Both the position numbers and the translations under genes were made by a program. The notes under the pieces are model-generated. The model was not told where the DNA came from, searched no databases, and saw only the letters and a list, made by a program, of their open reading frames with translations. From Gammaproteobacteria bacterium (GTDB taxonomy: Bacteria > Pseudomonadota > Gammaproteobacteria > UBA9214), in assembly GCA_020344335.1 (NCBI GenBank), contig CP070821.1:1452572-1488221 (forward strand): a stretch of DNA of 35,650 nt. The letters run 5' to 3'. Shown here piece by piece: positions 30,236 through 34,436 of the stretch; the stretch's first letter is position 1, and the number at the start of each line of letters is the position of its first letter.

Positions 30236-31591
30236 ATGGCAAATCGGCTTGCACTCATTGTAGATGACTCCAAGACGGCACGCGTTACGCTGAAACGCAT
30301 GCTGGAGAAACAGGGGCTTGACGTCGCCACACTGGAGTCGGCGCCCGAGGCGCTTGACTACCTCGTCAACAACACCCCTGATGTCATCTTCATGGACCAC
30401 ATGATGCCGGACATGGACGGTTTCGAGGCCGTCGAGGCCATCAAGAACAATCCCGACACCGCCACCATTCCGATCATGATGTACACCTCCAAGGGTGGTG
30501 ACCTGTATGTCAGTCAGGCGCGTGCCCTGGGGGCAGTCGGCATCCTGCCCAAACAGGTCCAGCCGGCGGCCCTGTTCGAGGTGCTGAACAGCCTCGGCCT
30601 GGTAAAAGACCGGCGCGCCCGTGCTGTGAGCAAATCGGAACGGGCCGTGATGATGGAACCGGCACCGGTGGCTGGCTCCCTGGCGGACAGTGGGGACATG
30701 CAGGAGATTGCGCGTCAGGCTGCCGTTACGGTCGAGCATACCCAGGAGTTGCACAGCCAGTTTGGCGACTTGCTGATCCAGCACAACAGTGTGATCGAGG
30801 AAGATCTCAGCGAGATCAAGCATTCTCTCGCGCAGCTTACCGGTAGTGCTGCAGGCGGTCGATCGGCATTGTCCCAGCTTTACCGGACCGGCCTGTTCAT
30901 TCCGCTCGTCGTGCTGCTGGTCATGCTGATTCCCCTGATCTGGCTTTACAAGATCAACAACGAGACACAGCTGAAGCTCGATATTGCCAGAAACCAGGCT
31001 GCACGCCTGCAGGCATCCGTGCAGCAACTGGGTCAGAACCGGGTCGTGACAGCACCGGCAGCACAAACAGTCATCGAGGAACCGCCGCCCGGGAGGCAGC
31101 CGGCCGAACTCTATCAGAGTATTGCTTGGGCGGTGAACCTCGGCGGTCACTATGACGTGCGCGAGGAGGCCTTCGGAGACCGGCAACTGGCGATCGTCTA
31201 CGAACTCATCACACGCCTCACTGCACTGGACTTCAAGGGTGTTGTCCGGCTGGAATCACACCTCGGCGAATTCTGCCTCAGCGGCAACGAAGTGGATGGC
31301 TTTGTACTCGCCGGGGGTAACATCCTGGTGCGCGAATGTTCCCGCTTTGGTCACCCCCTGCAGCAGCTGCCACTGCTGGGCGAGCGTCAGTCCATCGCAT
31401 TTGCCAATTTCCTCGCCACCTCGCCCCTGGTGAATGGCAGTGACATCCAGATTGAAATCGTTGCACACGGGTATAGCCGGCCCCATCTGAAGTACCCGGC
31501 ACGCGAATCAGGCCTGCCCGCTTCCGAGTGGAACCGCATCGCGGCCGCGAATAACCGCGTCGATGTGATATTGGGGCCTGCCGGCGGCTAA
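30236..31591 (+). CDS. Receiver domain - membrane helix - OmpA-like tail fusion protein
   Basis: Residues 1-122 form a CheY-like receiver: acidic pair Asp10/Asp11, phosphoacceptor Asp54 (FMDHMMPDMDG), Thr84 and Lys106. A linker (about 123-215) has alternating charged and hydrophobic residues that suggest a helix. One strong membrane helix spans about 219-238 (GLFIPLVVLLVMLIPLIWLY), then a coiled-coil-like stretch (about 242-265) and a Pro-rich hinge. The C-terminal part (about 335-446) resembles an OmpA-type peptidoglycan-binding domain in its second half: GERQSIAFANFL (Arg384), IEIVAHGYSRP and ANNRVDVIL (Arg441). The TDxxG motif of the family is missing. No DNA-binding output domain is present. 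GGGGAGA lies upstream of the ATG. It is a single gene between ppc and a convergent gene; function unknown. Confidence 0.85.
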   Translation: MANRLALIVDDSKTARVTLKRMLEKQGLDVATLESAPEALDYLVNNTPDVIFMDHMMPDMDGFEAVEAIKNNPDTATIPIMMYTSKGGDLYVSQARALGAVGILPKQVQPAALFEVLNSLGLVKDRRARAVSKSERAVMMEPAPVAGSLADSGDMQEIARQAAVTVEHTQELHSQFGDLLIQHNSVIEEDLSEIKHSLAQLTGSAAGGRSALSQLYRTGLFIPLVVLLVMLIPLIWLYKINNETQLKLDIARNQAARLQASVQQLGQNRVVTAPAAQTVIEEPPPGRQPAELYQSIAWAVNLGGHYDVREEAFGDRQLAIVYELITRLTALDFKGVVRLESHLGEFCLSGNEVDGFVLAGGNILVRECSRFGHPLQQLPLLGERQSIAFANFLATSPLVNGSDIQIEIVAHGYSRPHLKYPARESGLPASEWNRIAAANNRVDVILGPAGG

Positions 31592-31596
31592 CCGCC

Positions 31597-31617
31597 ACCG
31601 GCGTCAACAGCGCCGGT
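31597..31617. terminator. Hairpin in the 25-base gap between convergent genes
   Basis: ACCGGCG (31597-31603) and CGCCGGT (31611-31617) pair around a 7-base loop and fill the space between the two stop codons. No T-run follows on either side, so it is a candidate two-way stop rather than a classic terminator. Confidence 0.35.
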
Positions 31618-33563
31618 CAATCCGTAGTACCGAGCGAGCCGGCAACGGATGTCCGGTACGCCACAAGCTGCGGCCAGCGTATCAGCAGGTACGGCATGGA
31701 ATCCGGCGCATTGGCCAGCTGCGCCCCGGCCCAGGCCGCCGTTTGCCAGGCCCGGTCATGGTACACGTTTTTGCCCGTTGCACCAGCAAGGTCCAAAAGG
31801 ACATGCACCGCAACCCCGTTGGCCGATACCGCGGCCCCGTCGACCACCTCTTTCTCGCGTATCCAGAACCCGCTATCGTCTCCGCTGCGGTAAAATCCGC
31901 CGGCCACGTCGTCCCAGAACAGTTGCAACTGGGTATCCACCAGGCGCTGCGCCTGTTGAAGCCAGCGCTCGTTACCGGTCACCCGGTAGAGCATCAGCAG
32001 ACCCTCGGCAAGTGCCGCATAGTCTTCGGAAAATCCCGGCACACCACGCACGCCCGCACGCCAGTCACGATACAGGCGTCCCGTCTTGCCGTCATACAAC
32101 GCCGTCATAAGAAAATCCGCGGCACGGGCAGCGGCCTCGATATAACGCTTCTGATCCAGCTGGTGACCGGCCTGTGCCAGCGTGGTAATGAGATGACCGT
32201 TCCATGCGGTAATGATCTTGTCATCGACGGGCACCGCGGCTCGCCGCTGCCGGGCGGTCAGCAGGCGTGCATCGACAGCCGCCGTGCGCTGCCTGGCGGT
32301 AATCAGGTCCACATCGAACTGCCGTGCCAGCGCCTTCAGATCATTGGCAATGTAGAGAATATTTCGACCGGCAAGTTCACCCCGCGGATCATCGATGGCA
32401 TTGCCATGTTCCTCGATCCCGTAACGCGCGCTGGCCCAGTCACGCAGTACCGGTGTATCGAGTTCCGACTCCAGCTGCTGCCGCGTCCAGGTGTAATACG
32501 CCCCCTCCTGCATGTATCCAGTAGTGTCATTCCCGGACGGGCTGTCGGCACCCAGCGCGGAATAAAATCCGCCCTGCGGAGATTGCATCTGCTTCAGGGT
32601 GAAATCGAGAATGCGACCGGCGGTGTCCGCATAATGTCCCGCACCGACCTGGCGGGCAGCAACGAGGTAGGCGCGTGCAATCAATGCCTGGTCGTACAGC
32701 ATCTTCTCGAAATGCGGCACACGCCATTCGAAATCGGTCGAATAGCGGTGAAAGCCGCCACCCAGCTGATCATGGATACCACCTGCCGCCATCCGGTCGA
32801 GGGTTGACAGCGCCATGTCGACACTCGCCTTATTGTCGTCCTGCAGCAGGAACAACAGGCGCGCCGGCTGCGGGAACTTCGGTGCCGGACCGAAACCGCC
32901 CTGCAATTCATCGTACTGGCCGGCCAGCTCGTCACGTACGGTTTCCAGTATTCCAGTGGTCAGTCGTTGTAACGGCATCGCGGAACTGACAAGCCGGCGC
33001 ATCTTCGCCACCGCCCGGTCCGCGGTCTCGCGCACCCCCTTCTCGTCGTCTTTCCAGAGTTCGCTGATCCGCGCCAGCAACTGTTTCAGCCCGGGACGGC
33101 CGCCCCCGGCTTCCGGCGGAAAATAGGTACCGCCCACGAACGGGTGTCCGTCCGGCGTGGTCCATACCGACATGGGCCAGCCTCCCTGCCCGCGGGTGGC
33201 AACCACGTATTTCATATAGGCGGCATCCAGATCGGGACGCTGTTCCCGGTCGATCTTGATGGCAACAAAATTGCGGTTCAGTTGTGCGGCGATCGCCGGG
33301 TCGCTGAAAGACTCGCGCGCCATCACGTGGCACCAGTGACAGGTGAAATAGCCGATAGAGATAAACAGCGGCTTGTTTTCGCGCCGTGCTTTTTCGAAGG
33401 CGGCCTCGCCCCACGGATACCACTCTACGGGGTTACCGGCATGCAACTGCAGATAGGGACTGGATTCCCCTGCCAGACGCCAGCCGCCGGACTTGTCAGC
33501 CGCAACAAGCGGCAGGGTGACTGTCACAAACAAAAGCAGCAGGGAAACGGCGAAACGGTGCAT
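31617..33563 (-). CDS. DUF255/YyaL-type thioredoxin-fold protein with signal peptide
   Basis: A large protein of 648 residues related to YyaL and SPATA20: an N-terminal thioredoxin-like domain (about 32-170) and an (alpha/alpha)6-barrel-like remainder. The hallmark [22 protein letters not shown] block is followed by the CxxC motif at Cys75/Cys78 ([14 protein letters not shown]). Residues 1-22 ([20 protein letters not shown]) form a signal peptide, placing it in the periplasm. The ATG at 33561-33563 is preferred over a GTG four codons earlier. The biochemical role of the family is not established; a redox or N-acyl-glucosamine-epimerase-like barrel role has been suggested. Confidence 0.9.
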
Positions 33564-33658
33564 GGTGCATCTCACAGGACAGATACAGAAGCGGGACGTT
33601 GCTACCCTTGTTCGAGTCGCATCACCGGCAATGGTTCCCGGCAGCAGACTCCGGACGA

Positions 33659-33941: not shown

Positions 33942-34436
33942 CTACTGTCCGGTTACATTGTCTGACCGCGATATTGCCTCGAGCAGCAGGCGGATCACCT
34001 TGCACGCATACTCGTGTGCCGTCGGTTCCCTGCTCGCACGCGGGCCGGCCACGTTCAGGATAGCAATGCCATGCGTCCGGATAAAACCGGCGACCGCCGC
34101 TGCCGCATCGGCGGTCGACATTACGGGCGCATCAATCGACAGGCAGGGCTTGCCGATTTTCCTGCAGTATTCTTCTGTCAGGGCCGTTCCCCCTTCCAGC
34201 TTGCCGAAATGGATGATCAGTGTGCCATCACTGTCGCTGACATTCTTGCGGGTGCGCTCGGGATAACCGCCGGATGGCAACGGCGTGAGCGGGTAGCGTT
34301 CGTCGATGGGTCCGTCCTCGGCGCTACGGTTCGCGGGACACCATCCTCCGCAGGCAGCGCCCGCCTCCAGGGCGGCATCCAGTGCACCGCGGTCGACACC
34401 GGTCTGCCCCCCCGAGACAATTTTCAAGGGAAGCAT
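33942..34436 (-). CDS. Putative molybdenum carrier protein, cpYpsA type
   Basis: A 164-residue Rossmann-like protein of the LOG/YpsA superfamily. The N-terminus LKIVSGGQTGVDRGALDAALEAG is the signature of the family, followed by CPANRSAEDGPI and YPERTRKNVSDSDGTLI. The family name comes from similarity to a molybdenum-cofactor carrier of algae; the actual ligand in bacteria is not proven. It lies nine bases downstream of the DUF2905 gene and 13 bases ahead of the cupin gene, so the three are probably cotranscribed. Confidence 0.92.
   Translation of the reverse strand: MLPLKIVSGGQTGVDRGALDAALEAGAACGGWCPANRSAEDGPIDERYPLTPLPSGGYPERTRKNVSDSDGTLIIHFGKLEGGTALTEEYCRKIGKPCLSIDAPVMSTADAAAAVAGFIRTHGIAILNVAGPRASREPTAHEYACKVIRLLLEAISRSDNVTGQ

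Follow-up and report, generated by a model that had tools for sequence, protein, structure and literature searches.

Response regulators are mostly classed by their cytoplasmic output domains, and OmpA-type domains attached to a membrane helix are able, as in MotB, to transmit signals or gate ion flow. Within the 35,650-nucleotide stretch of gammaproteobacterial DNA analyzed here (the window), a single gene encodes a receiver and an OmpA-like domain on one polypeptide. Its nearest functional analogues are FrzS and AglZ of Myxococcus xanthus, with which the window protein shares an N-terminal receiver and a long coiled coil. In FrzS, this arrangement serves localization and not DNA binding, and the receiver is without a phosphorylatable aspartate and without the Mg-binding triad (PMC1974792). 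In contrast, the phosphorylation site is intact in 69/69 aligned members of the window protein's family; since it is missing from FrzS, the window protein could function in a similar way but falls outside the FrzS/AglZ type. FrzS is also not known to have a membrane helix or a periplasmic domain.

On the periplasmic side, the closest comparison is with the C-terminal domains of MotB, YfiB, Pal, and OmpA, which share the fold of the window protein's tail and in which the ligand-binding arginine occupies the place of its Arg384. The tail differs from these domains in having no profile match, a 26-residue insert with two cysteines, and C-x-x-x-G in place of TDxxG; the aspartate of the binding pair is absent in the window's genus, and the cytoplasmic part is a receiver. 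The single-domain receivers of the type IV pilus chemosensory cluster (PilG, PilH, and the ChpA receiver) represent the third point of reference, as receivers of this kind are the nearest by score within the same genome and among the nearest on a tree. They are soluble, whereas the window receiver is membrane anchored and has its switch tyrosine and Lys-Pro pair replaced.

A conserved gammaproteobacterial family

The gene (30236..31591, plus strand) starts with ATG and encodes a protein of 451 amino acids with full-length homologues at 30-78% identity. It is a real protein with the domain order given in the initial annotation, namely, a receiver, a coiled coil, a membrane helix, and an OmpA-like tail, the last being OmpA-like by fold. 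This order is constant across 69 aligned gammaproteobacterial homologues, and its expected recurrence in other genera is borne out. A frameshift or fusion restricted to one genome, considered from the outset as a possible refutation, is ruled out by full-length homologues in many gammaproteobacterial families.

A scan of genome contigs returned 555 related stretches, and the best 80 loci, nearly all full length, come from Woeseiaceae, Steroidobacteraceae, Ectothiorhodospiraceae, Nevskiales, Chromatiales, and gammaproteobacterial bins. The tail is carried by 18/22 genomes of the same family, with the window's own not counted, and by 25/369 genomes in an even sample of Gammaproteobacteria. It lies behind a receiver in every full-length class-wide match, and the single receiver-less match stops at a contig end. 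Across a phylum sample, the tail was found in 2/299 genomes, these being the window's own and one more of the same class. Two loci carry labels from outside the class (L044, labeled Halobacteria archaeon, and L081, labeled Bythopirellula); their family genes are gammaproteobacteria-like, L044 begins exactly like the gammaproteobacterial L034, and the contigs are probably misbinned. Searches of open-access full text, with subscription papers outside their scope, brought up neither a protein combining receiver, membrane helix, and OmpA domain nor any account of tail-anchored receivers. The window protein is part of a conserved gammaproteobacterial family, apparently undescribed in the open-access literature, within a larger group of membrane-tethered receivers.

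The receiver and its putative tail-anchored relatives

The receiver, at residues 7-117 (30254..30586, plus strand), is the only Pfam domain found in the protein and matches the response regulator receiver domain (PF00072) with an E value of 9e-26 and 90.6 bits against a cut-off of 30.2. The full catalytic set first read from the sequence (Asp10, Asp11, Asp54, Thr84, and Lys106) is invariant in 69/69 homologues. An aromatic switch residue and a Lys-Pro pair are common on the output face of PF00072 receivers, if not strictly defining, and the 20 receivers of the window's own genome have the switch Tyr/Phe in 17 cases and the proline of Lys-Pro in 14. Position 103 in the OmpA-bearing homologues is instead Val or Ile in 69/69 (Ile103 in the window), the usual switch Tyr/Phe being absent, and position 107 is mostly Gln or Glu, so that Lys-Pro becomes Lys-Gln or Lys-Glu (Lys106-Gln107 in the window). 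Lys-Pro is retained in the tail-anchored relatives described below (16/16). Judged from these residue counts, the receiver looks active, but the OmpA clade has a rewired output face and lacks the usual output switch. The invariance of G88, Y91, A95, R96, G99, and A100 in turn implies that a different contact keeps the helix 4 face under strong constraint.

The nearest receivers were collected by receiver similarity alone, whatever follows the receiver. Among the closest of those without an OmpA domain, a clear membrane helix follows the receiver in all but two of the proteins examined. In 16 relatives (L195, L197-L205, L212, L213, L219, L223, L231, and L234), a long helical region leads to a terminal membrane helix that, by hydropathy only, ends 0-8 residues before the stop codon, and these proteins are accordingly termed putative tail-anchored receivers. 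Others differ: L196 has a membrane helix and a short tail but has lost the OmpA domain; L190 (1363-2796) has a coiled coil, a membrane helix, and a different C-terminal outer domain with two cysteines and no Pfam match; L187 ends at a contig end; and L194 is without a membrane helix. Pfam searches beyond the receiver in eight sampled relatives gave weak helical matches only. A genuine membrane helix follows none of the 20 receiver domains of the window's own genome, as the two flags raised by hydropathy fall inside a second receiver.

A tree of 70 receiver domains over 122 columns, with many weak forks and with comparison receivers all taken from the window's own genome, splits the anchored receivers from all 20 own-genome receivers with support of 100/92. 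The OmpA-bearing receivers form a 99/95 clade (30 OmpA rows and 3 others) within the tail-anchored grade. With a root among the ordinary receivers, anchoring would be the older state, and the OmpA-like domain would have arisen by a single gain, followed by at least one or two losses or exchanges. As the OmpA clade sits inside the tail-anchored set, the common feature is a receiver tethered to the membrane and not signaling via an OmpA domain. It can be proposed, tentatively and with slightly less than even confidence, that these proteins represent a distinct gammaproteobacterial class of response regulator in which membrane location is the output: a single clade of receivers, all tethered by a C-terminal membrane helix, within which one branch acquired a disulfide-stapled OmpA-fold domain together with a rewired output face. 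A cytoplasmic phosphate switch would thereby be physically linked to the cell wall.

The OmpA-like tail and the gene neighborhood

The putative periplasmic OmpA-like domain comprises residues 289-451 (31100..31588, plus strand), modeled by AlphaFold at a pLDDT of 94.3. With hardly an exception, the top 39 PDB fold matches of this model (Foldseek) belong to the OmpA family and include OmpA, Pal, YfiB, TolB-bound Pal, TssL, MotB, TagL, and Zorya ZorB. The best PDB entries are 5wtp, 1oap, and 5y61, and the TM score to target is 0.46-0.62 for most of the best ten; as the best E value is only 2.3e-3, the likeness is to be read as fold-level evidence. A home-made OmpA profile aligns collinearly with the tail (E 0.0014, score 26.6, against 20.0 for the best of 60 column-shuffled decoys), and since this score is only modestly above that of the reversed profile (22.9), the OmpA claim rests on fold. 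The OmpA-like domain profile (PF00691), which does match six other genes of the same genome, matches neither the window protein nor any of 68 tails in Pfam, and NCBIfam and PDB sequence profile searches of the tail gave no OmpA match. The OmpA resemblance first proposed thus failed by sequence profiles and held by the fold of the AlphaFold model.

The same model alters what the resemblance consists of. The tail had been taken for the second half of an OmpA domain, but the beta-alpha-beta-alpha-beta fold is present, including the first beta-alpha-beta unit, and the insert follows the second strand of that unit; as modeled, the tail is a whole OmpA-like domain split by an insert. The insert occupies residues 343-368 (31262..31339, plus strand) and is 26 residues long in 63/69 homologues and 25-27 in the remainder. 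Cys347 and Cys368 are each found in 69/69, every tail has exactly two cysteines, and the linkers have none, so that the family's cysteines are almost confined to the tail. A periplasmic disulfide between Cys347 and Cys368 fits this pattern.

The missing TDxxG motif is likewise better described as altered, since C-x-x-x-G stands at its place, displaced past the insert (C368-S-R-F-G372, with Arg384 at +12; 31337..31387, plus strand). Across the family, C-[D/S/T/A]-x-x-G aligns with TDxxG; Asp369 is the commonest residue at its position (40/69), which is Ser in the window's genus. Arg384 and the "ANNRVDV" segment are present as first reported, and position 384 is Arg in 53/69 homologues. G372 and position 384 are 12 residues apart in 67/69 homologues, the same spacing as between TDxxG and the ligand-binding (diaminopimelate) arginine in OmpA. 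By these counts, many members seem to retain both residues of the wall-binding pair, and the window's genus seems to have lost one of them. As the residue lost is the acidic one of the peptidoglycan-binding pair (Ser369), wall binding by the window protein is conjectural.

The gene neighborhood varies. A phosphoenolpyruvate carboxylase gene (ppc) lies about 80 bases upstream in the window, and a DsbH-type thioredoxin-fold gene is convergent on the opposite strand; its DUF255 product (31617-33575, minus strand) probably carries a signal peptide and contains a CHWC motif. Further along (33942-34436, minus strand), a circularly permuted YpsA-type SLOG protein is encoded between cupin and gamma-glutamyl cyclotransferase genes. 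A ppc gene is upstream only in the window's family, an alpha/beta hydrolase gene is downstream in 19 other loci, and further loci have bactofilin, GGDEF-EAL, DUF2845, and gshA genes as neighbors. No operon partner was found; the neighbors differ between lineages and name no function. A scan for promoters and terminators was uninformative. No histidine kinase match was found in the window, in agreement with the initial annotation that no cognate kinase is adjacent, and a crude motif scan of all loci found one histidine kinase. The genome as a whole has 19 HATPase_c matches, not every one of which is a kinase.

The DsbH-type gene adjoins the family gene in 9 loci of the window's family and is possibly relevant to the cysteine pair of the tail. 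It could be speculated that the periplasmic domain reads the state of the wall, or the redox state via its cysteines, and alters phosphorylation of the receiver, the protein thereby competing for the phosphate of a shared kinase such as a pilus-type CheA. The invariance of the cysteine pair would suit such an outside-in sensor or phosphate sink, although the cysteines are equally invariant at loci without an adjacent DsbH-type gene. The own-genome receivers nearest in score are a pilG-pilH-like pair and the receiver of a large CheA-like protein encoded near 515 kb, and a branch of modest support (83/87) groups the receiver of this large protein with one member of the pair and one further receiver; this branch is shallow. 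Genomes with the family encode a pilG-like receiver in 19/19 cases and those without it in 14/20 (Fisher p 0.02), a comparison in which genomes were not matched for relatedness. As a receiver would also be an odd reporter for an outer sensor, we consider this explanation improbable.

A bactofilin gene is found within three genes of the family gene in 15/70 loci from several lineages, mostly on the opposite strand and usually convergent to it (L078:9344-9751 and its 14 counterparts). Bactofilin is encoded in 19/19 genomes with the family and in 12/20 without it (p 0.003; genomes not matched for relatedness). Both observations are in line with a wall-anchored polarity or cell shape factor acting with the bactofilin cytoskeleton. 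However, the prevailing opposite orientation speaks against such a role, and the window's own bactofilin gene lies about 740 kb from the family gene. Furthermore, the closeness may be simple inheritance, because the same block carries unrelated genes such as gshA. A partnership with bactofilin is thus very doubtful.

The membrane tether and proposed recruitment at the envelope

In the AlphaFold model, built with 69 homologues, the receiver is confident, as is a C-terminal domain that starts near residue 288. Two long helices, at residues 153-207 and 221-270, agree with the coiled coil originally described. The first represents a predicted cytoplasmic helical or coiled-coil linker (30692..30856, plus strand), and the second contains a predicted periplasmic helical linker at residues 239-270 (30950..31045, plus strand). 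Between them, the single membrane helix, first noted at about 219-238, falls at 219-237 by hydropathy (30890..30946, plus strand; 2.78 over 19 residues), and exactly one such helix is found in 77/79 family members. The positive charges flanking it give an unclear topology signal (1.8 versus 2.0 per 15 residues). The N-terminal receiver is without a signal peptide, and if it is cytoplasmic, the single membrane helix requires the OmpA-fold domain to be periplasmic.

Mean identity to the window protein, over the 69 aligned homologues, is 68% for the receiver, 39% for the tail, 18% for the cytoplasmic linker (residues 123-217), and 16% for the periplasmic linker. The spacing from receiver to membrane helix varies between 79 and 122 residues, which disfavors one fixed rigid register through the linker, and the stretch after the membrane helix is nearly constant at 199-219 residues. 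These properties bear on the two roles originally suggested, in which phosphorylation inside alters something outside or a receiver is tethered at the envelope. In the former, phosphorylation of Asp54 would change the dimer, and the change would travel along the helices and affect how the OmpA-like domain outside binds the wall or a partner. This is conceivable because OmpA-type domains on a membrane helix can transmit signals, as MotB does, and it would make use of the intact catalytic site, the nearly unbroken modeled helix through the membrane, and the near-constant length beyond it. Against this, the linkers are poorly conserved and variable in length on the receiver side, the sister proteins have a receiver, coil, and membrane helix but no outer domain, and L196 and L190 have lost and replaced the OmpA domain, respectively. 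Inside-out signaling therefore seems to us somewhat unlikely.

A receiver tethered at the envelope is favored, as the receiver is the most conserved part, the tether is constant in the wider group, whose nearest members keep coil and helix without a periplasmic domain, and the linkers are the least conserved. We put at roughly one in two the probability that this membrane-tethered, phosphorylatable receiver serves as a recruitment platform that is controlled by phosphorylation and held in position by the envelope. The helical linkers would make the protein a dimer, and the OmpA-like domain, stapled by its disulfide, may attach to the cell wall or to an envelope protein and thereby determine the position of the receiver. 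Asp54 would receive its phosphate from a kinase encoded at another locus, and the receiver, once phosphorylated, could recruit a cytoplasmic partner to this site or release it. The output would then be recruitment to a particular site on the inner membrane instead of DNA binding, and an outward signal is improbable. The tail-anchored sister proteins may have an equivalent role in which no periplasmic anchor is involved.

In conclusion, the analysis points to a signal protein whose action depends on its position at the membrane rather than on DNA binding, and the tail of this protein illustrates that OmpA-fold domains can escape current profile libraries. It provides a named set of homologues and a testable link between two-component signaling and envelope organization. 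If the proposal is true, a clade with a membrane anchor as its common output and one branch extending into the periplasm would represent a different use of the phosphate switch, giving these bacteria control over where partners gather at the envelope or a coupling of cytoplasm and wall without transcription.
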